Shown: positions 1,825 through 47,129 of the stretch, one piece after another
Layout: the number at the start of each line of letters is the position of its first letter
How positions within the stretch are numbered: the first letter of the stretch is position 1
Source: a virus
Length of the DNA stretch: 47,129 nucleotides
Virus record (IMG/VR): IMGVR_UViG_3300048591_000481
Span: 1-47,129 of that record
Direction: 5' to 3' (one strand)
Made by a program: the position numbers and the translations under genes
The notes under the pieces: model-generated
The model's input: only the letters and a program-made list of their open reading frames with translations
Told to the model about the DNA's origin: nothing
The model's database searches: none

Positions 1825-3655
1825 ACTTCTCCCTGTGCGGAAGACACCAGGTAACAATTTATTACAATATCTGCCAAGATGGCAACAGAATAACTCACCT
1901 AAAAATTTAGGTATAGTCAGATTCTTATTTGATATGTATGAAATTAATAGACAACTTGGTAACCCTCCGTTAATCAGAGATTTCAAACCCGAATATGGTG
2001 TAGCCCCGTGGGCATCTGATGCTTTATCTTCTTGGTTTGATTATGAACCTGGAATGACTAAGGATGATTGGTGTCATGTCGTAGCTACCCATAGAGAAGC
2101 ATCTAAATCCACTTGGTATTCTTTCGTATTACCTATATACCTGATGTTAGTAGGTCAATATGGAATATATCATAATGATAATTTATTACCAGAATTTGAT
2201 TATACTGTTTTACGTGGTAAAAATAGCAAAGAAGCTCAAAAGCGTATTATGAATATAAGTAACTTCTTTAATAAGCCCATTATTAAATTACTATTCGGAG
2301 ATGTTAAACCTTCATACAAAGAAGTAAAAGAAAAAGAAGCTAAAGATACAGGTGGGTTGTTAATTCTTTCTAATGGATATATCTTTGAATGCTCAGGTAT
2401 AGAGCAACCATCCAGAGGATTAAACATATTCTCTGTTAGACCAAAACTATTTATATTTGATGACGTTCAGAATAAAGAAAATACTAAAACTGAAGAACGT
2501 AGAAGAGGTATAGATGAAGAAGTTATGATGGAATCCTTCGGAGCAGTAGCCGATGAAGGTAGTATGATATATATTGGCAATAAAGTACATAGAGCTGATA
2601 CATTAGGAAGACTATTAGACAAAGATAACCCAGTGTGGAAGAAACATTTCTACACATTGACTATGAGAAAGGAAGATGGTGTACTACTTCCAGGAGTTGG
2701 TGATTTAGCTAATGAGACTCCTATGTGGGGTAAGAGATGGACAATAGAAGCTGTTAAAAAACGTAAAGAATTTTATGAATCACAGCCAAATTTAGGTGGA
2801 TTAAAAGGATTTCTGAAAGAATATTATAATATTATTAAGTCTGATACAGATTATAAGATTAAATATTACCTTGCAACTTATGAATATACCCATAATATTA
2901 ACTGGTTGGTCTTTACAAAGCCAGATGGTAGTAAAGAATACAAGAATATTTTCGTTACCATCGGGTTTGACCCTGCTATTTCTGATAGAAAGCATGCTTG
3001 TGATAGTGCGATAACTGTTTTAGCTGTTGATAGCGACCATAATCGTTATATCTTAGAGCAAATTTATGGTAAATGGGATATACACGACAGATATTATGAT
3101 GGAGAAGAGAAAGTATTACCAATAGCTCTGCTACCTGAAGACCTTGTTAAAGTTAAAAGACGTGGTTCGGTGGAACAAGTAGCTCGTACAGCATTAAAAT
3201 GGCACGCAGATGCAATAGATGTGGAAACAGAAGTAGGAACTCAATGGACTTTCTATAATGAATTAGTAGAAACCCTTAAATCTGTTAATTTTACTAAGCA
3301 TCCAGTGCCAGAAAAAAGTCCTGCAGAAGGAAAATTAGAGAAATTAAAGCAAATCCCTTTGATGTATTTTGAATCTGGTAAATATAATCTGCCTGGTGTT
3401 ATAGATAAAAATGGTATGGTGAGTTGTAGAGAAGATATTAAACCATTTGAAAATGATGTAATAGCATTTCCTGATTGTGCTAAAGACAGATTAGATTCAG
3501 TATATTTAGCTGAACAAGTAATATCATATCCTCGCAGTATTCCTTTTAATCCACTTGGGTATCATAAAGAAGAAGAAGAAGATAAGAAGCATCAAGTAAA
3601 ACAATATAAAAAGAAAACATTACTAAATGAATTTGAAGCGTGGATAGTAGATTAA
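1805..3655 (+). CDS. terL: terminase large subunit
   Basis: ATPase and nuclease of the DNA packaging motor. The N-terminal ATPase has a Walker A-like segment THREASKSTW (about residue 97), like the R/K-rich P-loop of many phage terminases, and a Walker B segment LFIFDD (about residue 215). The C-terminal RNase H-like nuclease shows IGFDPAISD (about residue 385) and a late acidic RLDS motif (about residue 560). The protein is about 616 residues, a usual size. The frame is open from a TTG at 1787. ATG 1805 is chosen because an AAGG lies 11 bases upstream, but ATG 1808 or 1817 are also possible. The start overlaps the end of the previous gene. Confidence 0.92.
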   Translation: MMKRMTKLLPVRKTPGNNLLQYLPRWQQNNSPKNLGIVRFLFDMYEINRQLGNPPLIRDFKPEYGVAPWASDALSSWFDYEPGMTKDDWCHVVATHREASKSTWYSFVLPIYLMLVGQYGIYHNDNLLPEFDYTVLRGKNSKEAQKRIMNISNFFNKPIIKLLFGDVKPSYKEVKEKEAKDTGGLLILSNGYIFECSGIEQPSRGLNIFSVRPKLFIFDDVQNKENTKTEERRRGIDEEVMMESFGAVADEGSMIYIGNKVHRADTLGRLLDKDNPVWKKHFYTLTMRKEDGVLLPGVGDLANETPMWGKRWTIEAVKKRKEFYESQPNLGGLKGFLKEYYNIIKSDTDYKIKYYLATYEYTHNINWLVFTKPDGSKEYKNIFVTIGFDPAISDRKHACDSAITVLAVDSDHNRYILEQIYGKWDIHDRYYDGEEKVLPIALLPEDLVKVKRRGSVEQVARTALKWHADAIDVETEVGTQWTFYNELVETLKSVNFTKHPVPEKSPAEGKLEKLKQIPLMYFESGKYNLPGVIDKNGMVSCREDIKPFENDVIAFPDCAKDRLDSVYLAEQVISYPRSIPFNPLGYHKEEEEDKKHQVKQYKKKTLLNEFEAWIVD

Positions 3656-3672
3656 TTATTTTTTAACACCTA

Positions 3673-3701
3673 TTGACAAACGAATTTTTATTTAGTATGT
3701 T
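3673..3701 (+). promoter_or_regulatory. sigma70-type promoter before portal gene
   Basis: TTGACA (3673-3678), 17-base spacer, TATGTT (3696-3701), in an 87-base gap between terminase and portal. The upstream bases TTTTTTAACA resemble those of the minus-strand promoter at 42010, suggesting a shared extended promoter type. Confidence 0.6.
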
Positions 3702-3742
3702 TTAATTCATTAAAAAAACATTTCAATACAGGGTATGCACTG

Positions 3743-5692
3743 ATGTCCAAAGAGTGGAAAGAGGAATACCAAAAAGAGAATTACAAAGATTTCAGAGACA
3801 ATGCTAACCACCGTAATTCTTGGGAAAAAGACGCATCACGTTTTGAAAGGTTTAGATATGGTAGCCATTTCTCAACTTCAGAAGAAGCAGAACTATTAGC
3901 TTTTAGACAAGCCCCACTTCCTATATCAATAACAACCGCCATTTGCGATAGTGCCGAAGCAATGATGATTTCCTCCAAACCCGCCATAAAAGTCGCCCCT
4001 ATCATTCACCCATATAGAGAGGAATTGACCAACCGCTCTAAAAAAGTTGCACAAATCTATAACTATCTTATTTCAAAAAGCTGGTACGATTCGCTTGGCG
4101 GTTTGCAGTACGACAGAGTTATAAGGGATTCAAGTAATGTAGGGCATGGACTTTTTTATATAGTTCCACGTAATGAATATGGTGAATTTACGGTAGATAT
4201 TAAACATCTTAATTGGCGTAGTTTTTATCCTCATCCATTAACACGTTCTCCTTTCTATGAAGATTCAGACAATATGGTTATAGCAATGGAGATGTCTAAA
4301 TTAGCTGCATTTAGATTTGTTAAATCCATTGAACCTGACATAACAGAACAAAGATTTGAAGAAGACTTTGTAAAAGGTGCACCATCACCATTACAAGCAA
4401 CATCTTCTCGTTACTCACCAGCTTCTCAACGTAATGGTTCAGTATTATTTGTGCAGAAATTAGTTCTTGAAGAACAATTTATGCATATAATAATACCTAT
4501 GGTTAAAGATTTGAATTATGAAGAGTCTCAAGTAGGTTATAGAGTAGTGCAAGAATTAACTCCACAGCTTACTTCTATGGAGAGAGATGGTAAAATTAAA
4601 ATTGTTAAAGAACGCAGATTAGTTTTAACTGAATACACATCAATAGGGAGATTAGGATATAAAATAGTATATCCCATATCCAACTATAATATAGTCCCAC
4701 TTACTTATGACCACTTAGATAATCCTTATCCGCTTGGTCGTGTATGGTATATGTATCCTTTACAAAGAGCATTGAATAAATTTATGATGATAGCTCTTAT
4801 CAATGGTTCTTTAATGAACTCAATGAGAGTTGTATATGAAAAAGATTCTATACCTGATATAGATGAATGGAAGCGTAATTTTGCTAAACCAGGAGCTATG
4901 TTAGCATGGGAACAAAAGATTCCAGGTATGACAAAACCTCCTACAATACTTGAAAGTAAACCATTAACAGAAGCGTGGTTGTCAATGCCTAAATATATTA
5001 CATCTGTAATGGAATATGTAAGTGGTATATTTGGTGTTATGATGGGAGATGCTCAAAACTCACCTGATGTATTTAGTACAGTAGCTTCTTTACAATCGGC
5101 AGGTGGTAATAAAATTAAAAGAAGACTTGCGCAATCAGATGCGGCTCTATCTAAAGTAGGAAGTGTAGTAGCAGAATTTTATAAAGAGTATGCACCGCCT
5201 AATGGATTTTCGATAGCGATAGATGCTAACGGAGAGATGCAAGAAGCACAGAAGTATAATGTATTGAGAATGACTGAAGATAAACAAATAGAGATAGACC
5301 CTGAAACTGATTTAAGTCTTGGTTTCAAAGATGTAAGATTTACAACACAAGGTTCATCGGGATTTGAAAGTGGTACAGAAGCAGCATTAATGACAAACTT
5401 AGCAACGCAATTAAAAGTACCGCAACTGCTACCAGCTATATTAAGACGTATTAATATTCCAGATGTAGATAAGATTATAGAAGACATAAGCGTTGTAAAT
5501 CAGCAAAATGCTACAATAGAACAGCTACAAAAGATGGTGACAGACCTTGATAGTAAGAGCAAGATACTTGCTAATCAAGTACAGCAGAAAGGATTTGAAA
5601 CAGAAAATGCTAAGTTCTCTTCTAAATTAAAAGAGATTTTAACTGAAGTAAAAAATAATCCAGAATCAATTAACAATTACTTAGGAGTATAA
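3743..5692 (+). CDS. portal protein
   Basis: A 649-residue protein between large terminase and scaffold, the normal place for the portal. The portal is the dodecameric ring at the packaging vertex. Typical portal features are visible: an N-terminal region with a conserved basic/aromatic start, a central hydrophobic segment around GRVWYMYPLQRALNKFMMIALI (split: YPLQRALNK and MMIALI), and a helical C-terminus ending in a coiled coil (about residues 590-640: ATIEQLQKMVTDLDSK). Its length fits podoviral portals. The first 120 codons or so look slightly richer in GC than the rest. The call rests on synteny and general sequence type. Confidence 0.85.
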   Translation: MSKEWKEEYQKENYKDFRDNANHRNSWEKDASRFERFRYGSHFSTSEEAELLAFRQAPLPISITTAICDSAEAMMISSKPAIKVAPIIHPYREELTNRSKKVAQIYNYLISKSWYDSLGGLQYDRVIRDSSNVGHGLFYIVPRNEYGEFTVDIKHLNWRSFYPHPLTRSPFYEDSDNMVIAMEMSKLAAFRFVKSIEPDITEQRFEEDFVKGAPSPLQATSSRYSPASQRNGSVLFVQKLVLEEQFMHIIIPMVKDLNYEESQVGYRVVQELTPQLTSMERDGKIKIVKERRLVLTEYTSIGRLGYKIVYPISNYNIVPLTYDHLDNPYPLGRVWYMYPLQRALNKFMMIALINGSLMNSMRVVYEKDSIPDIDEWKRNFAKPGAMLAWEQKIPGMTKPPTILESKPLTEAWLSMPKYITSVMEYVSGIFGVMMGDAQNSPDVFSTVASLQSAGGNKIKRRLAQSDAALSKVGSVVAEFYKEYAPPNGFSIAIDANGEMQEAQKYNVLRMTEDKQIEIDPETDLSLGFKDVRFTTQGSSGFESGTEAALMTNLATQLKVPQLLPAILRRINIPDVDKIIEDISVVNQQNATIEQLQKMVTDLDSKSKILANQVQQKGFETENAKFSSKLKEILTEVKNNPESINNYLGV

Positions 5693-5694
5693 TA

Positions 5695-6855
5695 ATGGCT
5701 GAAGAAGCTGTGCAAAATGAAATAATAGAAGAAGAAGTATCGTCAGCAGAAACTGAAATAATACCTGTTGAAAAGAAAGCTATACGCAGTGGTGCAAGTA
5801 GAGAAATGGCTAATGCTAATAAATCTACTAAATCTACTGAAGTAGAAAATCCTGTTGAAAATAAAACTTATGATTATACTTACATCAAAGATTTATCTTC
5901 AGAAGATTATAAGAAGTACGAACCTATTAAATCTAAATATGGAGAAGACTTATATTATCAGACAGTAGTATTAGCAAATGATGTGAAGAAACAACAGCGT
6001 TTAGTGGCTGAAAGAGAGAGAGAATTAAACACTTATAAGTCTGCTAAACCTGAAGAAGAATTAAGCAAGTACAGAGAATTTACTGAAGGAATGCGTAAAG
6101 ATGCTATTGGAACATATAAGAGATTCCAGAAAGAATTTAATTTACCAGATTCTGATTTTCTTGAAAAGCAAATATCTTCAGGTAGTACACAAGACAGATT
6201 AGAACAATGGCAAGATAATGAATTAGTACCTAAGATAGAAAAAAGATTTAAGTTAGATGCTGATACATTTTTATATGACCCTTCAGAAGCATATAAAGCT
6301 GGTACTCCTTCATATGAGTATAGGGTAGCAACTGAAAGGAAAGAACAAGAATTTAATAATGAATACGAACAGACACAGAGCAGACAAAGAGAAGTAATTA
6401 CAACTGTTAAACAACAGCTTGATGAAGATATGAAATATCTTAAAGAAACTTTTTTTGCTCCGTCTAATTATGAAGTAAAAAATGAAACAGGAAGTGTTAT
6501 AAATGCTGAGGAAGCCAACAAGAAAGCTGATGAAATGTTCACAGCTTTTCTTACTAAACTTGATGAGAATCAGAATGCTATTAAAGAGGGGAAATTTTCT
6601 GCAGAGCAGAACCCGTATTCTTTAAGAGTTATATTCAGAGGAACGCATTTTGACGAGTTAGCTAAGGCACGTGAGGATAAAGCTATTGCTTCCATACATA
6701 AGCAATACAATGCTAAAGGTCTTTACTTGCCATCGAATGAGAATCCGACTGATGCTACTAAAGTTAAAAGTGAAAATATTAATGCACAATCAAATGAAAC
6801 AAGAAGAAAATTCAGCCCTGCATTCAGGGAAATTAGTAGAAATTCAAAGGAGTAA
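5695..6855 (+). CDS. scaffold protein
   Basis: A 386-residue, strongly charged, Glu/Lys/Gln-rich and mostly helical protein placed between portal and major coat protein. This composition and place are those of capsid scaffold proteins, which template head assembly and leave before packaging. The N-terminus is acidic (EEEV, EIIPVE) and the C-terminus is basic (RRKF...REISRNSKE), as in scaffolds that bind coat protein by a basic C-terminal end. The start has AGGAG seven bases upstream. The gene ends three bases before the coat gene start. Confidence 0.8.
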   Translation: MAEEAVQNEIIEEEVSSAETEIIPVEKKAIRSGASREMANANKSTKSTEVENPVENKTYDYTYIKDLSSEDYKKYEPIKSKYGEDLYYQTVVLANDVKKQQRLVAERERELNTYKSAKPEEELSKYREFTEGMRKDAIGTYKRFQKEFNLPDSDFLEKQISSGSTQDRLEQWQDNELVPKIEKRFKLDADTFLYDPSEAYKAGTPSYEYRVATERKEQEFNNEYEQTQSRQREVITTVKQQLDEDMKYLKETFFAPSNYEVKNETGSVINAEEANKKADEMFTAFLTKLDENQNAIKEGKFSAEQNPYSLRVIFRGTHFDELAKAREDKAIASIHKQYNAKGLYLPSNENPTDATKVKSENINAQSNETRRKFSPAFREISRNSKE

Positions 6856-13750: not shown

Positions 13751-14331
13751 GAGAATTAGTGAGCCTATTTAAGAGAGAAGTGTTTGATGATTACGATAGA
13801 TTTGATAAACCATCTACTGTATTAAAAGAATCAGAAGGTGCAACGGTGGCTAACATAGCAGAGAATGAAATATTTATAAATAATAGTAATGAGTTAATGG
13901 CACGTAGAGATGGTAAAGCTATTAAGATTTCATTTGGCAGTGGTTATCCTATACAAGGTGGTGCAAGTTCACAAGAGCCATCAAATCCTGCTCCGCTTGC
14001 TTCATATTTTATAGGTAAAAGATTTGATAAAGATTTAATAGGTGATTCCATACTTGGTATAGGTACAATCCCACAAGGTGCATTTCTAAAGAATATTTAC
14101 GTAACTATCACAGAACCGTTTGATGATACGATAACAATGAGATTAGATGATAGTTTAGAGAAAACACTTTTATATGAAGAAGAGGTGGACTTGACTATTG
14201 TGAATACAAATGTAAAAACTAATTTTAAGTATTATGAAAGTGAAGTTAATACAACAGCATATTTTGATGGTGTTGCAACAAAAGGTGAAGGGTTCATTAT
14301 TTTAGAAGTTATAAAGGTTCAGGGATTATGA
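13747..14331 (+). CDS. tail-associated protein
   Basis: A 194-residue protein between the nozzle-like protein and the fibre. It overlaps both neighbours by four bases, so the three are translated in series. The first 40 residues are charged and may bind the tail. A Gly/Ser/Pro linker (about residues 70-90) leads to a beta domain (about 95-194). This layout, small anchor plus beta domain, is common for fibre anchors or tail appendage proteins. Confidence 0.65.
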   Translation: MRELVSLFKREVFDDYDRFDKPSTVLKESEGATVANIAENEIFINNSNELMARRDGKAIKISFGSGYPIQGGASSQEPSNPAPLASYFIGKRFDKDLIGDSILGIGTIPQGAFLKNIYVTITEPFDDTITMRLDDSLEKTLLYEEEVDLTIVNTNVKTNFKYYESEVNTTAYFDGVATKGEGFIILEVIKVQGL

Positions 14332-26488: not shown

Positions 26489-27042
26489 AGAAGTTAATAT
26501 TGCTGTTATTCTTTATATCAGCACCAATGTTTGCTCAATCGTTATGGTGGGCTGATACAACTTCAGATGGGAAAGAGGTGAAAGTCTTTCTTGGTAATTA
26601 TAATAAAATTACAGGTGGTATAAGGCATGCACCATTACCAGTGTCCTTTCCTTCTGAAAGTATCCAAAATACTACTGTGTCTAATCCCTATGTTACTTTT
26701 GTCGATTCAATTAAAGGTGCAGATACATCAAGTTATAATTTCAATAAGTTATATGGTTATGGCTATTTGGGTATTAAAAGTAGTGGAAGTGCCGATACAT
26801 TAGTAATCGAATATAAAAGTACAGCTATGGATACTTGGACTTCACAAGCGATTGGATTTAGGGATGTTTATGATAATAACCTATTCTTACCTGATAATAC
26901 AACTGTTGTAATTGGTGCAGGATTAATTAAAAGATTCTTAGTCAATCTTGCAAGACCTGAAGAAATCAGAGTACGATGGAAAACCAACATTGGCAAATCT
27001 GCAAGGAATTTAAGAATAACATTTGAGGGAGTGAACTTATAA
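26485..27042 (+). CDS. exported beta protein next to the lectin
   Basis: A 185-residue protein with a signal peptide (MKKLILLLFFISAPMFAQ) and then a mature beta-rich domain with Trp, Tyr and Thr. GGAG lies upstream; the start overlaps the stop of the giant protein by four bases and its own stop overlaps the lectin start. Coupling to the lectin gene suggests they act together, perhaps as adaptor and receptor-binding head. No family recognised. Confidence 0.7.
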   Translation: MKKLILLLFFISAPMFAQSLWWADTTSDGKEVKVFLGNYNKITGGIRHAPLPVSFPSESIQNTTVSNPYVTFVDSIKGADTSSYNFNKLYGYGYLGIKSSGSADTLVIEYKSTAMDTWTSQAIGFRDVYDNNLFLPDNTTVVIGAGLIKRFLVNLARPEEIRVRWKTNIGKSARNLRITFEGVNL

Positions 27043-28595
27043 TGAATATGATTAAGAAAATACTATTACTTAGTTTATTCTTAGTGATAAACTTACAGGC
27101 ACAATTCTTTGATAGTCCATCAGTTTTTAAGGTAGTTAATGGAAAAATAATCCCTGTTGGTTCAACGTGGCGTATGGATTCAACTTATATAAATGGATTA
27201 CCGCCTATGTTTGGTGCAGAGTTCATTAAGGGTAATGGGTACTATGCTAATAATCAGAAGATTGTGGCGCATCCTTTTCTTTCTAATAATTATTTGATTA
27301 GGGATAGGTGGGGTAATTATAATGCAATGGTTTATATCCCACAATTTAATTGGACACCTACTTTAGAATTTAGTGCGGTAGGTAGAGCTTCTGAAACGTT
27401 CGGGGCTAATTTAGACCAAGATTCTGTTATTATTAATGCTTCTGCATCTGCGGTGAATGATGCTTACAAAGATTGCTACATAGTTTATAATGGTGAATGG
27501 AGATTGATTAAGAGCTACATAGGTGCTACGAAGAAGGCAGTAATAGATTCGTTTTCAGTTAGACCAACTGTGGCTAATAGCTATGTGATTCATGCCGTCC
27601 ATCCTGCATTTATTGTGGATAATACGATAATAAAAGGGTTCTATATTGGGAAATATGAGGCATCGATTGTTAGTAATGTAGGGGCTATTCAGACTTTTAC
27701 AACTTCTTATGGTGGTGCGAGTTGGGATACTCCTGCGGAATGGGTAACAGCGAATAAGGGTGCTCATTCAAGGGCTAATGTAGAACCGCAAGTGAGTATT
27801 GATTATGATGCGGCTAAGGCAGCTTGTGAGGCGTTAAATGCGGATGCAGATAATATTGCCACGACTGGGAAGTTTTATTTGCAATCGAATGCTATGTGGG
27901 CGGCAGTTGCAATATGGGTAAGGCAACAAGCTGTTACATTGAGTTTAGGTTGGGTACGAGGGAATAATTTATATGGTACTGATGTAGATGACAGGACTGT
28001 TACGTTTTCACATAATATTGACAATCCACTTATTGGCGTATCGGGAAATTCAAGGGCGTTGGCAGGTAGTGGAGGTGTGAAAACTTCTCATAATAAGGAG
28101 GAGAGCGGTATCTATGATATGAATGGAAATGTGTGGGAATGGGTATCGGGATATAAAGCAGTAGATGGTAAAATATTTGTGGCAGGTAATAGTAATACAG
28201 GTGCAAAGGGAGAGGGTAATAGTATAGAAGCTACTGAAGCAAATTATTATGATACAGGTATATATTATAATTGGGATGGAACGGCTTCTACTTTTACTTT
28301 CAGCTCGGCTAATCGAGGTACTGATATGGGTGCTTCTTATAAGTCTCAAGGGTTTAATTTAACTAACGCAAATGCGACAGGTACATTGAAAAGATTAGCA
28401 ATAGCTCCAAATACGCAAGGGGGGGATTATGGGAGTGATTATTACTACACAAGGAATTATGGTGAGCGGGTCCCGCGTCGTGGTGGGAATTGGGGCTACA
28501 ACGCGGATGCGGGGGTGTTCTGCTTGTACGTGAACAGCGAACGTGCGAACGTGGCCGGCACCGTTGGTTTCCGTCTTGCTTTTGTAAAAAAGTAG
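27042..28595 (+). CDS. DGR target protein, C-type lectin / FGE-sulfatase fold with variable region
   Basis: A 517-residue protein with a signal peptide (about residues 1-21, ending LQAQ). Residues about 185-517 carry the FGE-sulfatase/C-type-lectin pattern: GFYIGKYEAS, then IYDMNGNVWEWVSG, then a C-terminal RRGGNWGYNADAG...VGFRLAFVKK. The end is the classic variable region of diversity-generating retroelements: GFRLA at the C-terminus and many NNC codons (GGC, TAC, AAC, TTC, TGC, AGC, GCC, ACC) in a low-GC genome, as expected from adenine mutagenesis of AAC codons. It likely binds host surface ligands. The signal peptide is odd for a virion protein. Start at 27042 has GAGGGAG upstream. Confidence 0.88.
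   Translation: MNMIKKILLLSLFLVINLQAQFFDSPSVFKVVNGKIIPVGSTWRMDSTYINGLPPMFGAEFIKGNGYYANNQKIVAHPFLSNNYLIRDRWGNYNAMVYIPQFNWTPTLEFSAVGRASETFGANLDQDSVIINASASAVNDAYKDCYIVYNGEWRLIKSYIGATKKAVIDSFSVRPTVANSYVIHAVHPAFIVDNTIIKGFYIGKYEASIVSNVGAIQTFTTSYGGASWDTPAEWVTANKGAHSRANVEPQVSIDYDAAKAACEALNADADNIATTGKFYLQSNAMWAAVAIWVRQQAVTLSLGWVRGNNLYGTDVDDRTVTFSHNIDNPLIGVSGNSRALAGSGGVKTSHNKEESGIYDMNGNVWEWVSGYKAVDGKIFVAGNSNTGAKGEGNSIEATEANYYDTGIYYNWDGTASTFTFSSANRGTDMGASYKSQGFNLTNANATGTLKRLAIAPNTQGGDYGSDYYYTRNYGERVPRRGGNWGYNADAGVFCLYVNSERANVAGTVGFRLAFVKK
28470..28582 (+). other. DGR variable region (VR)
   Basis: A GC-rich segment at the 3' end of the lectin gene, sharply different from the flanking low-GC DNA. Codons at likely ligand-binding sites are nearly all NNC, while other codons are ordinary. 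This is the footprint of adenine-specific retromutagenesis from a template with AAC codons. No template repeat or reverse transcriptase is visible in the window. Confidence 0.8.
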
Positions 28596-28675
28596 TTGGC
28601 TTTTGTGAAATCTAAAAATCTGGGTATCTGAATGGTTGATGAATTAATAATATATCAGAAATTATTGGAGGAAAT

Positions 28676-28942
28676 ATGTATAAATTAAAAAGTGGTGAAA
28701 TTATAACAGACCCTATGTATATCATGCCTGATGAATGGGTGAATGATAGGGTAGTGGAAAAGATAAGAAGTAGATATGGGCTTAATGAAGAATTGAAATT
28801 AATTCGATTAGGGGCAATGGATTCGAGGAATGCAGATTTTATCGAATATGCACTTTATGTTGAAACATGCAGAGAATGGGGGAAAATGGAAAAGAAGATG
28901 TATCAGGAAAGAAGGGATAATGTAGATGTTATTCTGGATTAA
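28676..28942 (+). CDS. hypothetical protein after DGR target
   Basis: An 88-residue charged protein with a strong ribosome site (TGGAGG). It has no signal peptide, membrane segment or metal motif. It overlaps the following zincin gene by 17 bases and is probably translated with it. Not an accessory variability determinant of a recognised type. Confidence 0.62.
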   Translation: MYKLKSGEIITDPMYIMPDEWVNDRVVEKIRSRYGLNEELKLIRLGAMDSRNADFIEYALYVETCREWGKMEKKMYQERRDNVDVILD

Positions 28943-31088: not shown

Positions 31089-31325
31089 TTATTGTTGCAA
31101 AGCAACTAAATGTACTATTTCATAATTATCATATAAGGTGAATATAGGTTTGCCTGTTGCTTTAGACATACTTTCTTTCTTAATCATATTATGGGTATCA
31201 CTAAAATTACTTATAATATCTTCAGTGGTAATATCTCCCACCTTAAATGTCTTAGCTATTTCAGATTTAGTATCAAGGTCAATCATTAATCTTACATAAC
31301 TAATTACATATTTCTTATCTTCCAT
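31089..31325 (-). CDS. hypothetical protein, last gene of leftward arm
   Basis: A 78-residue charged protein. The start at ATG 31325 is chosen because GGAG lies eight bases upstream; a TTG further up is unlikely. It overlaps the previous gene by 11 bases. No motif recognised. It is the last gene before the convergent terminator. Confidence 0.62.
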   Translation of the reverse strand: MEDKKYVISYVRLMIDLDTKSEIAKTFKVGDITTEDIISNFSDTHNMIKKESMSKATGKPIFTLYDNYEIVHLVALQQ

Positions 31326-32040
31326 TTGTTTCTCCAAATATTCTTTTGAATTTATGTCTTAGATGCCTTTTAACTTTAGCAGGGAATATCCAATTAAACC
31401 AACTTGTCGGGTCTTTTATGTTAAACTTTACAGGGTCTCTCTGATACAAGTAAGCAAAAGATATATGATAATACCCCGCAACACCTGCAAGTTTCTTGTA
31501 ACGCAAAGACCCACCCAATTTGACCTGTCCATAAATCCAAACCATATAATCATAAAAAGCCCAATATATGTGTTGATTGTAATAACTGCTAATAACGTTA
31601 CCTAATTCTGAATTTCTTACAGTTGTAGTAAACACTATAAAATGCTCAACATCAGATTTAGTTTTCGGGTTAGCATAAGAATAAACTTCTTTTCTAAATC
31701 TGCAATAACCATCTTTTGTTCGTTTATACTTTTCCACTATCAGTTCGTAGTACTCATCAAAATAGAACGCTACATCTTCCTTGCCCCTGAATTTATCCAT
31801 AATAACTTTCCAAGAATAATTACCATCAATGAATCCTAATCCTTGTCCACATTCAATCAAGAAATGTGTAAAGCCAATATCCTTAGCAACCATATAAGTG
31901 TTATACATTCTATTAGATAATACAATCGGGTCATCATTCGCATGTTCGTGTATCGAAATGAACAGTCCCCTGAACCCTTCATCATACAATTCTTTTAGAT
32001 GTGTTGCCCTATAATCTCCATCACAAATTCCAAGTATCAT
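31315..32040 (-). CDS. TIM-barrel-like protein of unknown function, paralogue 1
   Basis: A 241-residue protein that shares a C-terminal half with the protein at 34505: WIYGQVKLGGSLRYK, YLYQRDPVKFNIKDPTSW, WIFPAKVKRHLR. The N-terminal half has beta-alpha repeats (MILGICDGDYRATHL; GFRGLFISIHEHA; GFTHFLIECGQG), suggesting a barrel like glycosidase or polysaccharide-enzyme proteins. Basic residues fill the C-terminus (HKFKRIFG). GGGAG precedes the start. No catalytic residue can be named. Confidence 0.7.
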   Translation of the reverse strand: MILGICDGDYRATHLKELYDEGFRGLFISIHEHANDDPIVLSNRMYNTYMVAKDIGFTHFLIECGQGLGFIDGNYSWKVIMDKFRGKEDVAFYFDEYYELIVEKYKRTKDGYCRFRKEVYSYANPKTKSDVEHFIVFTTTVRNSELGNVISSYYNQHIYWAFYDYMVWIYGQVKLGGSLRYKKLAGVAGYYHISFAYLYQRDPVKFNIKDPTSWFNWIFPAKVKRHLRHKFKRIFGETNGR

Positions 32041-34504: not shown

Positions 34505-35278
34505 TCACCTAAATATTTTAATAAATCTTTTTCTTAAATATGTATTAATTGTTTTAGGAAATATCCACGTTAAATATGTAGTTGGATTTTTAATATCAAA
34601 TTTAATAGGGTCTCCCTGATATAAATAAAACTTAGTAATGTTATGTTTATCTGCATGCTTCTTCAGTGTTTTATATCTTAAAGAACCACCTATTTTTAAT
34701 TGACCATATATCCACACGAAAGGCATATCTTTATTCCATAGTTTATGTTGTCCCCAGTAGCTCGATATAGCGAGTTCACATTGGAATGCAATTGAGAAGT
34801 AATCATAGTTACGAGCAGTGCAATCAAATTTGAATGTATTATCATACATTAATCTTCTTCGCATTAATTCCGCTACTTCTGTTCTACTCCAACATTTACC
34901 ATTGTTAGCTTGTTTATATTCCTGCCTTTCATAGAACTGTTCAGGAAATTCACCTGCATACATATGGTACACAGCCATGTTATGTTTATCCTTATCGAAT
35001 TTATCTGATACTAATTCCCATATAGCGTCAAGTTCATTAATTCCCCATCCACCTGCTTCTAACAGAAATTCTTTACATCCTAATTTCTGTAACCTTAAAT
35101 ATGTATTATGATATTCTCTGATAGCATAATTAATATTAGGTCTATAATACGAGTAATAAGGATTGAAAGGTAATAATATCCCATCAAATCCTTGACTAAG
35201 CATTTTTCTTGCTTCTTCTTCTGTGAAATTATTAATCCATATACCTGTTATATTTTTTTTATTTTTTATAGTTATCAT
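34505..35278 (-). CDS. TIM-barrel-like protein of unknown function, paralogue 2
   Basis: A 257-residue protein clearly paralogous to 31315-32040: shared motifs WIYGQLKIGGSLRYK, LYQGDPIKFDIKNPT, LTWIFP and a basic C-terminal helix. The N-terminal half (GIWINNFTEEEARKML, GFDGILLPFNPYY, CKEFLLEAGGWG) has beta-alpha repeats. It lies about 2.5 kb from its partner on the same strand. Extra aromatic and Tyr-rich loops suggest carbohydrate binding, but no catalytic residues can be proven. Confidence 0.72.
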   Translation of the reverse strand: MITIKNKKNITGIWINNFTEEEARKMLSQGFDGILLPFNPYYSYYRPNINYAIREYHNTYLRLQKLGCKEFLLEAGGWGINELDAIWELVSDKFDKDKHNMAVYHMYAGEFPEQFYERQEYKQANNGKCWSRTEVAELMRRRLMYDNTFKFDCTARNYDYFSIAFQCELAISSYWGQHKLWNKDMPFVWIYGQLKIGGSLRYKTLKKHADKHNITKFYLYQGDPIKFDIKNPTTYLTWIFPKTINTYLRKRFIKIFR

Positions 35279-42027: not shown

Positions 42028-42918
42028 TTATTGTTTCAGCAATTCAATAATGTTTTTAGATGGTTCTGGTAAATTACTTTTAGTATAGAATATTCTTACA
42101 GCATCATTAATAGAGGTGTATATAATGCTATTAAATTTTAATTCATTTTTTCTGGTGTTGTATAATATTGTATCACCTGTGTAAACACTCACTATTGAAA
42201 TAGTATGTGATGATTCATATTTTTCAACTAAATATTCCATTTCATTTGCAATCTCTTTTAAGATTTCAGCAATCTTAAAATCACCTTTAATATATGAACT
42301 AAAATCTCTTCTGGGTGGTGTATAATCTTTAGATACTCTATTATAATAACCTTCATAATTAGGAGTAGAAAATCTGGTAGGTGTATAAGCTGTTACTCTC
42401 TCTTCAATTATTTTCTTCTCAGGTCTTCTACATTTAGCTAATACCTCTTTAGATATTTTATCATTATCATAATATCTGATTAATTCTAAATTAATCGTAA
42501 CGGGTTCTGTTAATTCTATTCCACCACATCCTTCTATTTTAACTGTATCAAGACGTGCTGAATATTCACCTTTACAATTCACAATTATTGTGATAATCGA
42601 AGGCATTATTTTTAACATTTGTTTAATGTTTCCTAAATCACCATATTCTCCTGAAGGAGTGCAGGACATATCTACGTGGCTATGCCATTGTACTAACATA
42701 TCCGACATATCATAATTAATATCATTCATTATGTCGTTAGGGAAGTTATTCACTTCACTTCCCTCTACAATCTGTTCGCATAAAGGGGCAAGTTTATATA
42801 TGCCCCTGTCATTATTGTAATGACCCCATCCTGCAATTTCAGAACTAAAATGTTTTTTAGCATAGAATGCGTATTCAAACATTTGCTGAAATACTTCATC
42901 TTTTATTTTAATTTTCAT
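42028..42918 (-). CDS. JAB/JAMM isopeptidase
   Basis: A 296-residue protein. Residues 1-130 are a JAB/MPN domain: Glu27 (SSEIAGWG), then QWHSHVDMSCTPSG with His79 and His81, Ser89 and Asp94. The usual spacing Ser-x2-Asp is stretched to Ser-x4-Asp, with Glu91 between. Such enzymes remove ubiquitin-like modifiers from targets. A second part (about 140-296) is unrecognised: linker (PTRFSTPNYEGYY) then helical region. It overlaps the E1-like gene by four bases, so deconjugation is expressed with activation. Confidence 0.85.
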   Translation of the reverse strand: MKIKIKDEVFQQMFEYAFYAKKHFSSEIAGWGHYNNDRGIYKLAPLCEQIVEGSEVNNFPNDIMNDINYDMSDMLVQWHSHVDMSCTPSGEYGDLGNIKQMLKIMPSIITIIVNCKGEYSARLDTVKIEGCGGIELTEPVTINLELIRYYDNDKISKEVLAKCRRPEKKIIEERVTAYTPTRFSTPNYEGYYNRVSKDYTPPRRDFSSYIKGDFKIAEILKEIANEMEYLVEKYESSHTISIVSVYTGDTILYNTRKNELKFNSIIYTSINDAVRIFYTKSNLPEPSKNIIELLKQ

Positions 42919-43682
42919 ATTTTTGCTATATTCTCCTTTGTTAAGGGCATTGTACCATTCTGTTCTGTTGCATTATTTTCTCGTGCAGTCATAATCCACG
43001 CTTGACCTGTGCTATAATCGTGGAAACTATGTAAAGCAGGATGGTATTTCTCCATAGCTAATGTCCTATAACGTCCGATTAATTCTGCACTTACTGCCAT
43101 ACTTGTGTCAATTATTGATTGACCTGAACAGGGTAACTGTATTGCTTCTTCGTTTGTATGAAGTGTTTTCTCATAGAACTGACATTCTTTCTTAACCCAT
43201 AACCTAATTCCATAAATATTTGCATATAATCCTCCTGTTCTGCTATCTAATAAGATAGTTCTTGTCCCTCTGTAATTCTTAAAAATATTTTTTCTGCTTT
43301 CCATATCATCTACCGCAGTGATAACAGTTGTGATTTTTCTATAATTTCTCAGGAAATCTGGTGGTATTTCTTCATACTTACCATTAAATGTGTTGATAGT
43401 AACATCTTTTACTATCAAATTTATGGTAGTCTTTAACACTTCTACCTTGAATAAGTCATCTGTTAAATCTAAAGATTCAGCAAAAAACTGATTTGGCAAA
43501 TTATGTGCTTCTACAATATCATAATCTACAAGTGTTAACTGTTTAACACCCATTCTTGCTAATCCAAATGCTGTGTAAGAGCCGATTGCTCCAGCTCCTA
43601 CTATTAAAACGTGTGCATCTTTGTCCCGCAATGGGTCGTAAAAATTTAACCCACGCCATGAATCTGCTATAATTTTTCCCAT
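42915..43682 (-). CDS. E1/ThiF-like modifier-activating enzyme
   Basis: A 255-residue Rossmann-fold adenylating enzyme. The ATP site GAGAIGS (29-35) follows VLIV, LVDYD (51-55) holds the ribose/Mg acidic residues, and TAVDDMESR (122-130) is the usual second Asp region. The Arg-finger position reads NLPNQ (61-65) rather than N-x-x-R-Q. Cys185 in LPCSGQSIIDTS is a candidate thioester Cys, followed by the usual helix. No Ubl-recruiting extra domain is fused. It activates a modifier by C-terminal adenylation. AAGGAG precedes the ATG; it ends in the JAB start. Confidence 0.88.
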   Translation of the reverse strand: MGKIIADSWRGLNFYDPLRDKDAHVLIVGAGAIGSYTAFGLARMGVKQLTLVDYDIVEAHNLPNQFFAESLDLTDDLFKVEVLKTTINLIVKDVTINTFNGKYEEIPPDFLRNYRKITTVITAVDDMESRKNIFKNYRGTRTILLDSRTGGLYANIYGIRLWVKKECQFYEKTLHTNEEAIQLPCSGQSIIDTSMAVSAELIGRYRTLAMEKYHPALHSFHDYSTGQAWIMTARENNATEQNGTMPLTKENIAKI

Positions 43683-43683
43683 T

Positions 43684-44706
43684 TTATGCTCCTTGTGTTT
43701 GTGTATTAATTTGTGTATTACATTGTGGATTTGAACATTCTCCTAAATACATATATGAATTGCATCTTGTACATAATGTTTCTCCCACAGATTGTGTATT
43801 AAAAAATTCTTTACTTGTTTTACCCGATTTAGGTAAAGCATATTTCATAAATAATAAAATTTTACTAATGTCTGTTATGCTGATAAAAGGATTCTCAGGG
43901 TAATAACTTCTTACTGAAGTATTAATCAAGTCAACTATAAAAGCATAATTTTTATTATTTATATAATTCTCCATATCTCCTGTTCTATTGCCGTAACATA
44001 TAGAACCACTTATATGTGGATGTAGGGTACGACTAAAACCAAACCATTCCCTCCATTCCCTGTCATAATACCAGTCATTGAAATAATACTTGACGTTTAA
44101 TAGGTTAAAATCACTATTAAATGTTAATATTATCTTTTTATAATTGATATATCCTTCTGCTTCATTGCCAATACAAACCTTATTAAATTCCATATCAAAT
44201 TCTCCATTACTTTCATTTAGAGTGAATTTAATACGGTATTTTTTACAATACTTATGAAGCTCTTTATAATCAAATGGTTTGTAATCTTGCATCTCACCAT
44301 ATTTAACAGCTATATTCTTCTGGATTGAAATTATCTCTTCAACCCAGCTTTGTATTATATTATATCTGGTTCTATTATTTGCAAAAATTTCCCCAGAACG
44401 TTTAGCTTCAGAGTTTGATAATCCCTGTATCCTTGATATAATATATATAAGTAAATCACTCTCTGCTTCTGCATATGCAGTATAATATATATCTTTTTCA
44501 GTGTCTCTTACTATATAATATTGGTTGTCACTTGACATTAAAACATTTCCTTTCAGTCTCACTGAAGAAGCCATCTCTCTAAAAGATGTTTCGGATACTA
44601 TATGTATCTTTTTTGCTATTTCATCTACATATTGGTAAGATTCACGTAAATGGAATGCAATGTTAATTTTAATTTTTTCATTAAAATTAATTCTTTCACT
44701 TAACAT
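43684..44706 (-). CDS. E2-like conjugating enzyme with C-terminal zinc knuckle
   Basis: A 340-residue protein from the ATG at 44706, which has a perfect GGAGG upstream. Residues about 140-300 have the E2 pattern: the strands INYKKIILTFNSDFN and WREWFGFSRT, then HPHISGSIC (229-237) with Cys237 as the likely catalytic residue, and the following YGNRTGDM. In E2s the HP(N/H) and GxIC segments are the hallmark. A four-Cys zinc knuckle closes it: CTRC (312-315), CSNPQC (324-329). The first 135 residues are a helical domain of unknown role. It would carry the modifier to a substrate. Confidence 0.78.
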   Translation of the reverse strand: MLSERINFNEKIKINIAFHLRESYQYVDEIAKKIHIVSETSFREMASSVRLKGNVLMSSDNQYYIVRDTEKDIYYTAYAEAESDLLIYIISRIQGLSNSEAKRSGEIFANNRTRYNIIQSWVEEIISIQKNIAVKYGEMQDYKPFDYKELHKYCKKYRIKFTLNESNGEFDMEFNKVCIGNEAEGYINYKKIILTFNSDFNLLNVKYYFNDWYYDREWREWFGFSRTLHPHISGSICYGNRTGDMENYINNKNYAFIVDLINTSVRSYYPENPFISITDISKILLFMKYALPKSGKTSKEFFNTQSVGETLCTRCNSYMYLGECSNPQCNTQINTQTQGA

Positions 44707-44717
44707 TTTTCCTCCAT

Positions 44718-44749
44718 AAAAAAAAGGCATCACGATTAAGCAATGCCTT
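44718..44749 (-). terminator. intrinsic terminator between modifier and enzyme genes
   Basis: On the minus strand a hairpin AAGGCAT / ATGCCTT (arms 44743-44749 and 44724-44730), extendable by C-G and G-U pairs, then a T-run (44718-44725, partly in the stem). It begins 13 bases after the modifier stop and lies just before the GGAGG of the E2-like gene. Confidence 0.82.
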
Positions 44750-44761
44750 GTTAATTAATTA

Positions 44762-45052
44762 TCAGTTATTCTTAGTTTTTACACCGATTCTGATAATGTC
44801 CTCTTTACTTAATGGTGTCTCGAAGTCTTGGACTGGTATTCCATTGACGCTGACTTCATAACCAGCGATGTTCATATCCTCAACGAATTCTTTAATCGTT
44901 GTGCCAGCTTTTACTGTTAAAATTTCTGGCAATTTAGCTGGACATTGGAAATTAACTTTGAATGTCTTAGCTTTGAATGTCTTAGCTTTGACAGTTTTAG
45001 CCACTTTAGTAGTGGTCTTTTTTGGAGCTGTTGCTTTTTTTGTGGTAGCCAT
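44762..45052 (-). CDS. ubiquitin-like beta-grasp modifier
   Basis: A 96-residue protein. Residues 1-32 are a Lys/Ala/Thr-rich basic tail with a KAKTF repeat. Residues 33-96 fit a beta-grasp fold: TFKVNFQCP, ILTVKAGTTIKEFVEDMNI (helix), YEVSVNGIPVQDFETPL, SKEDIIRIG. The VNG and the ...EDIIRIG strand match the ThiS/MoaD/ubiquitin-like order. The C-terminus is VKTKNN; where ThiS ends in GG, this ends in NN, so the usual di-Gly is absent. GGAG lies before the ATG. It is the first of four genes with E2, E1 and JAB partners. Confidence 0.75.
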   Translation of the reverse strand: MATTKKATAPKKTTTKVAKTVKAKTFKAKTFKVNFQCPAKLPEILTVKAGTTIKEFVEDMNIAGYEVSVNGIPVQDFETPLSKEDIIRIGVKTKNN

Positions 45053-45081
45053 CTCTGGACTCCTATTATTTATTAATAAAT

Positions 45082-45097
45082 CCCATCTTCTGATGGG
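45082..45097 (-). promoter_or_regulatory. stable hairpin upstream of the modifier gene
   Basis: CCCATC and GATGGG (45082-45087, 45092-45097) form a perfect 6-bp stem with a four-base loop, 30 bases before the modifier ATG. No T-run follows. It may protect the mRNA 5' end after cleavage of the tRNA-like element beside it. Confidence 0.5.
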
Positions 45098-45100
45098 TAG

Positions 45101-45151
45101 AGATGCATTTGGTTTGAACCTACAGACTGCTAATTAGCAACTGATGCATCT
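45101..45151 (-). ncRNA. short tRNA-like element (D)
   Basis: On the minus strand an 8-bp acceptor-like stem (AGATGCAT / ATGCATCT) closes 51 bases. Inside are one hairpin (TTGC/GCAG around TAATTA) and a T-arm-like GGTTCAAACC. There is no D-arm, and the T-stem is weak. It overlaps the end of a tiny ORF (45130-45159). It may be a degenerate tRNA or a tRNA-like processing signal. Confidence 0.35.
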
Positions 45152-45159
45152 AAATTCAT
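45130..45159 (-). CDS. tiny ORF, nine residues
   Basis: ATG overlaps the stop of the previous tiny ORF in ATGA form. The frame reads MNLDASVAN and a TAG. It could be translated by coupling to the upstream strong ribosome site. Too short to prove; it lies in the tRNA-like element D. Confidence 0.2.
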   Translation of the reverse strand: MNLDASVAN

Positions 45160-45182
45160 GCCTCTAAACCCTCTTTAGTCAT
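45156..45182 (-). CDS. tiny ORF, eight residues, strong ribosome site
   Basis: GGAGG (45188-45192) five bases before ATG, then MTKEGLEA and TGA overlapping the next ATG. A strong ribosome site before so short a frame suggests a leader peptide or a translation-coupling device for the modifier transcript. Confidence 0.3.
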   Translation of the reverse strand: MTKEGLEA

Positions 45183-45211
45183 TTTAACCTCCATTATATT
45201 GATAAAAAATA

Positions 45212-45351
45212 GGATATGGCAGGACTCGAACCTGCATTGTCTCTTATCATAGACTACTGAGTGTTGGCAACCCTCGAAGCGCACAGGCTTCACTCATTCC
45301 ATCCACTGTAATCAGTATGATAACAGAGTTTTATCATTAAATTACATATCC
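45212..45351 (-). tRNA. 140-nt tRNA-like element with extended anticodon arm (C)
   Basis: On the minus strand: 7-bp acceptor GGATATG / CATATCC (10 bp if flanks are included), a D-arm-like ATTTAATGATAAAAC, a five-base variable loop and a perfect T-arm GCAGG-TTCGAGT-CCTGC. Where the anticodon arm should be, a long helix CTCT(G)TTATCATA / TATGATAAGAG encloses about 63 bases with an inner GAAGC/GCTTC hairpin. The CAT in the ATCATAC segment resembles an anticodon loop but cannot be closed normally. No CCA is encoded. It might be a tRNA with an insertion or a tmRNA-like RNA. Confidence 0.5.
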
Positions 45352-45419
45352 TATATTGCTTAACTTTCATACAGACTTGCTCTCAGGTTATACCTTTGTC
45401 AATTCTGTGCTCTGTTAAG

Positions 45420-45446
45420 GTTTTACATTAAATTACATACTCTTAT
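45420..45446 (-). repeat. degenerate copy of the 5' part of element C
   Basis: The segment GTTTTACATTAAATTACATA (45420-45439, plus strand) with the bases after it nearly repeats 45328-45354, with small indels. This is the acceptor/D-arm part of element C. No 3' half follows, so it looks like a remnant of a duplication. Confidence 0.5.
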
Positions 45447-45508
45447 ATTTCATACAATAAATCGCATGTTCCTGAGTGAACATACAGTTATACCTATCGG
45501 TATCTGGT

Positions 45509-45655
45509 TTATCTTATGAAATAGTAAATTAAATGCGCACCAAAATAAATAGCGCATACTATAAACATTATGTAAGTAAATTTCATTAAATATCTGTCAA
45601 GTTCAGATTCTTCTGAACTTAGATATTCATAAATTAATTTCTTCAGTTTTTCCAT
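45509..45655 (-). CDS. 48-residue single-span membrane protein
   Basis: ATG 45655 has GGAGTG eight bases upstream. The first 22 residues are charged (MEKLKKLIYEYLSSEESEL), and then one hydrophobic helix (about 25-45: TYIMFIVCAIYFGAHLIYY). It lies between tRNA-like elements with two strong hairpins before its ribosome site. Confidence 0.55.
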   Translation of the reverse strand: MEKLKKLIYEYLSSEESELDRYLMKFTYIMFIVCAIYFGAHLIYYFIR

Positions 45656-45673
45656 TTTACACTCCATAATTTT

Positions 45674-45728
45674 AGCCCATTGGGATATGAGGGTATCCCG
45701 CAGGGCTTACGGTGTCTTAGAAAACACC
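45674..45728 (-). promoter_or_regulatory. two strong hairpins before the 48-residue ORF
   Basis: Hairpin 1: AGCCC/GGGCT outer (45674-45678, 45703-45707) and GGGATA/TATCCC inner (45682-45687, 45694-45699). Hairpin 2: GGTGT/ACACC (45711-45715, 45724-45728), followed on the plus strand by a T-rich run. On the minus transcript they precede the ORF's ribosome site and could regulate its translation. No known riboswitch class was recognised. Confidence 0.4.
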
Positions 45729-45907
45729 TATTTTTAGTTTTGTCTCAATTCTAAGATAGTACGATTAATATAAAACTTGATTTAAGGCGTCAAATAAACT
45801 CCGTGTGCCCTTAATATACCTTACCTATACGTTTATATTGGCTTTATAAATTAAGAGCCACACAGGGCTTTATTTAACAATCCTTTAACCTTTAAGTTAG
45901 TATATAG
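45729..45907. other. non-coding stretch
   Basis: No ORF with a ribosome site. A 6-base complement (TTAAGG / CCTTAA) and small GGCT/AGCC hairpins are present. It is part of the gap between the 48-residue ORF and the 45975 gene. Confidence 0.5.
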
Positions 45908-45968
45908 AAGTGGAACGGGAATCGAACCCTATACCCAGCGATTAATGCTCGGGCTACCATATCCACTT
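45908..45968 (-). tRNA. D-armless tRNA-like element (B)
   Basis: On the minus strand a 7-bp acceptor AAGTGGA / TCCACTT closes 61 bases. A hairpin CCC-G-AGC / GCT-GGG with a 7-base loop ATTAATC places TAA at anticodon positions after T33. A T-loop TTCGATT lies in a weak 3-bp stem (GGG/CCC). The 5' D-stem is missing; TGGTAG is left of it. It may be a degenerate or unusual tRNA, or a punctuation signal after the 45975 gene. Confidence 0.45.
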
Positions 45969-45974
45969 TACCTT

Positions 45975-46538
45975 TTATGATAACAACTCTGATTCTGGTG
46001 TTATTGGAGCTAACTTCCAATAATTATGGCTTAAACCTGCCATACCTTTAGCAGATGGTGTTAAGCCTAATTGTTCTGTATGAAACAACTCAGTTAACCG
46101 AGATGGAAATAATAACGTTCCGTCAGCGTTTTTAACTCTGTTTCCTTCTGCCACAGTATATATTTCTGAATAAACACCACCGTGTTCCATTCTAACAATG
46201 TCACCAATGTTGAATTTTGGAACATAGTTTCCTGTTGAACGAGATGCTCTAACATCTGCAGGCATTTCATATAAACTGTCTTCAAATAAGAAGACTTTTT
46301 TGCCTTTTAATGTTTCAGGACAGGTCTCAAGTTTAGCTTTTTCAAGCTGTCTTTGTAAATTGACCATTTCCACACTCAAATTTACCACGTCAGCTTCTGG
46401 TTCGGTAAATTCGAGTTTGAGCATTTCAATTTTTTGCTGAATGTCAGCCACTTTTATAGCTTTCAATTCAGCAAAATTATTGCGATAATGTTGCAACGCA
46501 ATAACATATTCTGAGTATGATTTTACTTCTTGCATCAT
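45975..46538 (-). CDS. hypothetical coiled-coil plus beta-domain protein
   Basis: A 187-residue protein. The first 75 residues are a coiled coil (ELKAIKVADIQQKIEMLKL; VNLQRQLEKAKLE). A beta-rich region follows with an SH3/KOW-like pattern (NIGDIVRMEHGGVYSEIYTV, split across about 115-135). Codon use looks a bit more GC-rich than the neighbours. AAAAGGAAA lies before the ATG. It is first in the leftward arm; function unknown. Confidence 0.7.
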   Translation of the reverse strand: MMQEVKSYSEYVIALQHYRNNFAELKAIKVADIQQKIEMLKLEFTEPEADVVNLSVEMVNLQRQLEKAKLETCPETLKGKKVFLFEDSLYEMPADVRASRSTGNYVPKFNIGDIVRMEHGGVYSEIYTVAEGNRVKNADGTLLFPSRLTELFHTEQLGLTPSAKGMAGLSHNYWKLAPITPESELLS

Positions 46539-46630
46539 TTTTTTCCTTTTAGTTTGTGGTTAGTGGTGTATAGCAATTGAATGCCCACGTCTTAAACGTA
46601 CACCATTTTATTTATTATCAGAAATACACC

Positions 46631-46678
46631 TCATAAGGTTTTAAGAATCCATTCGTGAATGTTATAAGTTTCGTTCAT
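46631..46678 (-). CDS. possible 15-residue leader peptide
   Basis: AAGGGG lies six bases before ATG 46678, then MNETYNIHEWILKTL and TGA. It precedes the 45975 gene by about 90 bases. Could be a leader peptide or chance. Confidence 0.25.
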   Translation of the reverse strand: MNETYNIHEWILKTL

Positions 46679-46706
46679 CTTATACCCCTTTTTGTTGTTT
46701 AGTTAG

Positions 46707-46774
46707 AGATGGTACAGGAATTGAACCTGTTAGGTTTTACCCTACTTTGTCGAGTTAACGACCCTTGACCATCT
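46707..46774 (-). tRNA. 68-nt tRNA-like element (A)
   Basis: On the minus strand a perfect 7-bp acceptor AGATGGT / ACCATCT and a perfect T-arm ACAGG-TTCAATT-CCTGT. Between them are two small hairpins, GTCG/CGAC around TTAACT and TAGG/CCTA around GTAAAA. Neither fits a normal D- or anticodon arm with U33 and a five-base variable loop. No CCA is encoded. A degenerate or atypical tRNA is the best description. Confidence 0.5.
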
Positions 46775-47129
46775 TACCATCAAACAAAAGGTAAAATGAT
46801 TTTTCTGACGTGCATAACACGCCCATCGGTATGTCAAAGAACCTGAGGATATACAGTTTATTTGATGTACCTGTCTAATTGGTTAGATTAGGCAAAATAC
46901 TGATATTTTAGCTATATTATACCCTTAAAAATAAGTATAATATTGGCTTAGATATACTCAAATTCAATCTGTAAAGAACTTATAAGGTATCTTAGACTAT
47001 ATACTAAATCTTATACCTTATACTATAATAAAATACCTGTAATATCCTAAGTTTAGTTTTATAAAATTCGTCATGAAATATTAATATAGGGGGGTATATA
47101 TATTAAGTACCTGTTAAATGGGTGTTATA
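46775..47129. other. non-coding right end
   Basis: No supported gene in this 355-base stretch. On the minus strand TTGAGT and TATACT boxes with a 16-base spacer occur near 46931-46961 and may be a promoter for the leftward arm. A G6 run lies at about 47087-47094. AACAGGTA near 47108-47115 resembles the element upstream of other promoters. Confidence 0.4.

Follow-up and report, generated by a model that had tools for sequence, protein, structure and literature searches.

A probable orphaned DGR target in a 47-kb virus contig: a lectin variable region beside the probable scar of its lost machinery

A variable region (VR) of a diversity-generating retroelement (DGR) that stands alone, without a template repeat (TR) or reverse transcriptase (RT), raises the question of whether it is still being rewritten, and from where. 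Such a VR had been predicted at the C terminus of a lectin gene in IMGVR_UViG_3300048591_000481, a linear virus contig of 47,129 bases without end repeats, possibly incomplete, which was analysed over its whole length and is referred to here as the window. Three options had been left for the locus: machinery lying outside the window, diversification provided in trans, or a variable region that is now fixed. The features of the locus discussed below are collected in Table 1.

Table 1. Features of the lectin locus, with positions in the window
Feature	Position	Strand	Basis or remark
Lectin-like variable protein, 517 aa	27042..28595	+	FGE-sulfatase/C-type-lectin domain
VR, 32 codons, RGGNW...GFR	28479..28574	+	Codon-by-codon alignment to VRs and TRs of relatives
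Three-unit CTG-type array, 8-nt steps	28607..28631	+	Matches the element 3' of the VRs of relatives
Putative avd start fossil, MVDELIIYQK	28632..28661	+	Matrix of the avd N termini of 12 relatives
Inferred deletion junction	28662..28675	+	avd fragment abuts the ribosome-binding site of gene X
Gene X, 88 aa	28676..28942	+	Homologue of the gene after the RT in L081

The record encodes terminase, portal, tail-fibre, helicase and ERF genes, and scans with its 2287-aa protein, terminase and portal found no close relative of the phage. Five genes of the virion region (starting at 14328, 16666, 16973, 26485 and 27042, all on the + strand and including the target lectin) have starts that look by eye like signal peptides, and in four of the five the stretch ends in AQ, again by eye. 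Signal-peptide-like stretches of such an AQ-ending style are found in Bacteroidota, and a Bacteroidota-type host is suggested, by eye only. Elsewhere in the record, the region 42028-45052 (-) codes for a ThiF/E1-like protein adjoining a weak JAB match (42028-42918), a 349-aa protein without credible family match and a 96-aa protein of ubiquitin-like look (by eye), and is possibly a ubiquitin-like modification module in a phage. Two proteins without Pfam match, encoded at 31315-32040 (-) and 34505-35278 (-), resemble paralogues by eye and have in common IYGQ.K.GGSLRYK and the C terminus. The last 2 kb (45060-47129) are poor in open reading frames and hold one tRNA-Gly, the end of which was placed differently by Rfam, together with two more tRNA-like stretches seen by eye near 45905-45970 and 46715-46785.

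The product of the lectin gene (27042-28595) begins with a signal-peptide-like stretch, as judged by eye, and ends in RGGNWGYNADAGVFCLYVNSERANVAGTVGFRLAFVKK. It matched phrog_2889 with an E value of 1.7e-54 and PF03781 with an E value of 3.7e-4, under the cut-off of the latter family. When the PDB was searched with the sequence, the sole match at E 0.01 was 5vf4 (E 4.4e-17), that is TaqVP, the DGR variable protein of Thermus aquaticus. An AlphaFold2 model built from 16 sequences was of low confidence (mean pLDDT 59.6, pTM 0.67), and the top three PDB matches obtained with it in Foldseek were all chains of 5vf4 (E 2e-17 to 1e-16). The lectin matches a solved DGR variable protein in sequence and, according to the model, in fold.

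A protein search yielded relatives of the lectin, which were then searched for the VR frame of 32 codons. In the templates of these relatives (RGGNWNN..NAGVF..), AAY codons recur at set columns, and 11 such columns were picked by eye; at column 14 only some of the templates have AAY. At these 11 columns the window has AAT, GGC, TAC, GAT, TGC, TAC, AAC, AGC, AAC, GCC and ACC, all of them NNY and nine of them NNC, compared with NNC at 4 of the 21 other VR columns and in 6.2% of the other 485 lectin codons (binomial 6.5e-10). Thus, the original prediction of a DGR variable region at the lectin C terminus was borne out, and the NNC codon signature on which it had been built proved to be real. An unrelated stretch of 32 codons in the portal gene contains 13 NNC codons, equal to the raw count in the VR, so that it is the match to the template columns, not the raw count, that counts. 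The portal stretch speaks for an ordinary lectin C terminus that became VR-like by non-DGR descent or by codon bias; such an origin is extremely unlikely, being already contradicted by the template columns together with the array and the avd start described below.

The base composition of the VR was also compared with that of the relatives. The GC peak of the record is found in the 100 bases from 28464 (66% vs 32%), and the GC3 of the fixed VR codons was 0.67, close to the 0.71 predicted from RT-bearing relatives. The GC excess of the VR over its own genome, 0.29, was the highest of the rows listed, followed by that of the RT-bearing L027 with 0.28. Given these nearly equal values, the GC-rich VR was rejected as proof of foreign origin.

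No template was found in the 47-kb record. An adenine-tolerant alignment of the VR reached scores of 13.1 (+) and 12.4 (-), compared to 12.2 to 14.4 in 6 shuffles and 86 to 99 in five known VR/TR pairs, and a template hidden within the window was rejected on account of these shuffle-level scores. A PF00078 profile search of the record for an RT returned 0 candidates. Applied to three sets of relatives, the same search found an RT in 32 of 49 records, in 21 of 40 (20 of them above the cut-off) and in 18 of 34, which makes it unlikely that an RT was overlooked through poor sensitivity. RT-less records are common in the lectin family, and many of them are short. The absence from the window of both a near-copy of the VR and an RT, as originally noted, was therefore upheld. 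The avd family (phrog_3206) had no match in the record either. Of a complete DGR, the record contains the VR and lacks the TR, the RT and an avd gene.

The fixed bases of the VR were also sought outside the record. Their pattern had no match in the viral contig collection, and both the single match of a looser pattern there (L061) and the single match in a species-genome collection (L052) were attributed to chance. A blastn search with the VR against phages and plasmids gave no match. The closest of 80 TRs in the relatives has at least 19 non-A mismatches to the window VR, and the template of the window therefore came from none of those sampled systems. The GC-rich GRNA hairpin (described by Guo et al. 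2011, PMC3240598) is likewise absent in the window. Its absence says little, since perfect GRNA hairpins were present in just 10 of the 31 VR rows of RT-bearing records, and it was rejected as proof of decay.

While the original prediction was right about the VR and the missing TR and RT, it had missed two elements 3' of the lectin, an array and the start of avd, an accessory gene of DGRs. The array follows the VR after a gap of 32 bases, and its first unit reads ATCTA instead of ATCTG. In the relatives the consensus consists of [G]WAATCTG units 7 or 8 bases apart. When the record was scanned with a weight matrix made from the relatives only, position 28607 was the top of 94,242 positions on both strands, with 21.1 bits (next, 13.4); in an earlier ad hoc test, the P value relative to shuffles had been 0.0002 and the count among genome windows 34 of 5,536.

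Within the 60 bases behind the VRs in the loci of the relatives, an array (at least three CTG in a chain) was found 3' of 42 of 65 non-redundant VRs, where 0.48 were expected from shuffles, and it was seen in none of 45 template flanks. The spacing between units was seven bases in 71 cases, eight in 49 and another value in 8, and as background 53 of 68,038 windows elsewhere in the loci of the relatives reached three units at a spacing of 7 to 8. Excluded from this count were flanks shorter than 55 bases, VR-like rows in which six to eight codons were AAY, and any row that did not reach a stop within 12 codons; flanks at least 75% identical to a kept one were also dropped. After these steps there were 123 rows, of which 66 were non-redundant, and these 66 included the window and one altered L018 template. 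Wherever a GRNA hairpin was seen behind an array, the array lay between VR and hairpin; in BPP-1 and Pseudomonas phage Bise the array is absent and the hairpin comes almost directly.

In the literature searched, outside of which most subscription journals lie, we found no description of this array, and the word CTG does not occur in the text of Guo et al. 2011 (PMC3240598). Of the present findings, the array has the best claim to being new. Unexplained direct repeats of the heptamer TAACTGA are reported from Beggiatoaceae, Cyanobacteria and Bacteroidetes (PMC4679880); they resemble some of the arrays (AACTG, period 7), with no link shown. Also in the window, GCTTTTGT occurs twice within 28578-28606, 21 bases apart, once where the VR gene ends and once immediately ahead of the array, and many relatives have a single copy directly before the array. 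The doubling is possibly a duplication or a misplaced homing junction.

Directly behind the array, the ATG at 28632 opens a frame, MVDELIIYQKLLEEICIN, which is followed by a stop. After the avd-like residues this frame continues as LLEEICIN up to the stop at 28688, overlapping gene X. The peptide DELIIYQK was the top of 94,206 six-frame 8-mers, with a score of 20.3 (next, 16.9; training peptides, 18.3 to 26.2), and when the intergenic stretch was shuffled 20,000 times that score was never reached. The match had first been seen by eye and the matrix was made afterwards, with the window left out of it. In the relatives avd starts shortly 3' of the array; in the window, the remnant comprises the first 10 codons only.

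Gene X starts 14 bases after the avd fossil. A tblastn search matched it to L081 at 5554-5730, within an ORF at 5503-5817 (41% over 59 aa, E 7e-7), and among the loci of relatives compared L081 was the only one with a homologue. There the order is lectin (2618-3877), avd (3922-4251), TR (4260), RT (4511-5527) and the homologue of gene X (from 5503), with avd and RT both matching their families, so that about 1.5 kb, made up of all of avd beyond its start together with the TR and the RT, separates the points that match the junction of the window. In accordance with this order, such a stretch appears to have been deleted in the window. L081 is a distant relative, and within the 9.9 kb compared its matches to the window are the lectin and gene X only.

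The avd fossil also bears on the first of the three options. In that case, a working DGR would lie elsewhere in the phage genome, outside a record that may be incomplete and has no end repeats, and the VR would be a remote second target. Remote second VRs do exist: L117 and L131 are in one record, and the remote L131 VR, behind which array-type units and a hairpin are found and no avd motif, agrees with the L117 TR at every non-A site. However, the fossil lies right behind the VR of the window, which marks a primary locus rather than a remote target, whereas no avd motif was detected behind the remote VRs L131 and L022 (2849) by a simple motif test that also missed the avd start of L103. Against a remote target stands also the presence in the record of the terminase, portal, tail-fibre, helicase and ERF genes. 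A remote target is, on this evidence, quite improbable.

The avd fragment and the array beside the VR, with the avd-TR-RT site closed, argue for a resident cassette that was lost and not for a target built to be served in trans. The window is thus probably an orphaned DGR target, its machinery deleted and its VR frozen. The sequence itself shows a VR, an array, an avd start and a closed junction together, in a record from which TR and RT are absent. The ancestral order would have been lectin with VR, array, avd, TR, RT and gene X. A deletion in this lineage would have removed avd from approximately its 11th codon through the TR and RT, joining the avd start to gene X. With the VR now presumably fixed, the lectin would keep the last specificity installed, and further change would be limited to ordinary mutation and exchange with other phages. 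As the GC3 of the fixed VR codons is nearly that of RT-bearing relatives, the machinery may have been lost fairly recently. On the other side, the avd fragment is just 10 codons long, and the composition of the VR also fits ongoing rewriting. Of the three options initially left, a form of the third, a fixed VR, is favoured by the avd fragment, the array and the closed site, and machinery outside the window or acting in trans is less favoured.

Incomplete DGR loci are already known (PMC10907252), and several relatives had decayed or RT-less loci. The closest lectins found, L077 and L078, are 43% identical to that of the window. They have kept the array, and their avd is down to 17 codons followed by a stop; no TR was found in the 13 kb compared, and neither an RT nor an avd-family match came from their 33- and 29-kb records. 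Not one of the 96 VR bases differs between the two, compared with 30 bases in the 200 codons upstream, as expected of a frozen VR. A loss common by descent to these two and the window is not claimed, as a different gene lies behind the scar. L002 represents a different stage, with an intact avd and a template remnant (a 36-base alignment) about 30 bases behind it, with no RT in its 16-kb record. L079, which ends inside an avd-like frame, was left out of the RT-less count.

A different pattern was given by the RT-less pair L012 and L028: their VRs have 15 differences at first or second positions and none at the 32 third positions, compared to 40 of 200 third positions upstream. This indicates that the VR was rewritten after the lineages split, and hence that an RT-less contig need not mean a frozen VR; these contigs (19.8 and 10.4 kb) may miss the RT. 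Between the RT-less records of Vibrio phage 1.137 and pYD38-B, third positions differ at 3 of 32 in the VR vs 167 of 422. In the Vibrio phages 1.137, 1.119 and 1.127, all partial-genome records, the VR is identical and no RT is present in the record.

Other RT-less phages had a VR that fits the template of another. The L109 VR has 0 of 75 non-A mismatches to the L163 TR, with 13 of 21 template A positions changed, and the L082 VR has 0 of 75 to the L159 TR; L163 and L159 bear an RT, and L109 and L082 have no RT in the record and no TR in the parts compared. These matches agree with a VR that is still diversified in trans by the RT and TR of another phage, a prophage or the host, the array being part of the target site. 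So do the little-ameliorated composition of the window VR (GC3, as given above), the retention of the array in the window, and the in-genome trans activity reported for Thiohalocapsa (PMC10907252). However, the L109-L163 match continues past the VR at 95 to 100%, for about 100 columns on the upstream side and 80 on the downstream side, before falling off sharply, and exchange of the whole cassette explains it equally well, so that perfect TR-VR matches of RT-less phages were not accepted as proof of action in trans. Against such an action in the window stand, in addition, the avd fossil, which marks a former resident cassette, and the lack of a true match to the fixed VR bases in the viral and species-genome collections. 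Diversification of the window VR in trans is therefore considered unlikely.

One template is common, at all 75 non-A sites, to L109 (RT-less), L091 (a truncated contig that ends about 0.5 kb after its own VR) and L163 (RT-bearing). All three carry the metagenome id 3300033998, and they offer a setting in which trans-diversification or cassette exchange could be tested.

The function of the array was considered separately. A part in avd expression is weakly disfavoured, as L022 (2849) and L131 have the array and no avd motif behind it. The array is also found in L004, L012, L082 and L109, whose records have no avd-family match and which are possibly decayed loci. As a tentative proposal, somewhat short of an even chance, the array might be a recognition element, so far undescribed, of lectin-type DGR targets, the window then being a natural target-only construct of VR plus array. 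If so, the DGR of a co-infecting phage could still rewrite the VR of the window even with its machinery gone. Its presence behind 42 of 65 VRs and in none of the template flanks makes the array a testable candidate for the element by which the machinery discriminates target from template.

Under the preferred reading of an orphaned target, the window would show what remains after a phage drops its hypermutation machinery: a diversified lectin and a readable scar. Scars of this kind make it possible to ask with what frequency receptor-binding variants become locked in among phages, and they bear on whether targets without machinery borrow the retroelement of another phage.

Among known systems, the window resembles Vibrio phage VHML, Faecalibacterium phage FP_Lagaffe, Bacillus phage BalMu-1, L081 and L027 in its FGE-sulfatase/lectin target with a C-terminal VR. 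As in the window, an array follows the VR in FP_Lagaffe, BalMu-1 and L081, with two units in VHML and L027. The first three of these also have an avd behind the VR, whereas the window retains 10 avd codons only; all five have an RT in their records, unlike the window, and TRs were identified in VHML, L027 and L081 and none in the window. With BPP-1 (mtd, avd, brt) the window shares a receptor-binding protein gene whose 3' end bears an adenine-specific VR signature. However, BPP-1 possesses avd, TR and RT, and its mtd stop is followed at once by a hairpin, without a CTG array, whereas the window has neither the machinery nor such a hairpin. Similarly to the Vibrio phages 1.137, 1.119 and 1.127 and to pYD38-B, the window carries a lectin with a VR and no RT in the record; in 1.137 and pYD38-B, the two tested, the VR is not followed by a CTG array, unlike in the window. 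Finally, Thiohalocapsa PB-PSB1 likewise has VRs at loci without complete machinery of their own (PMC10907252); there, other DGRs of the genome provide what is missing for some of the VRs, whereas the window record has no second DGR.
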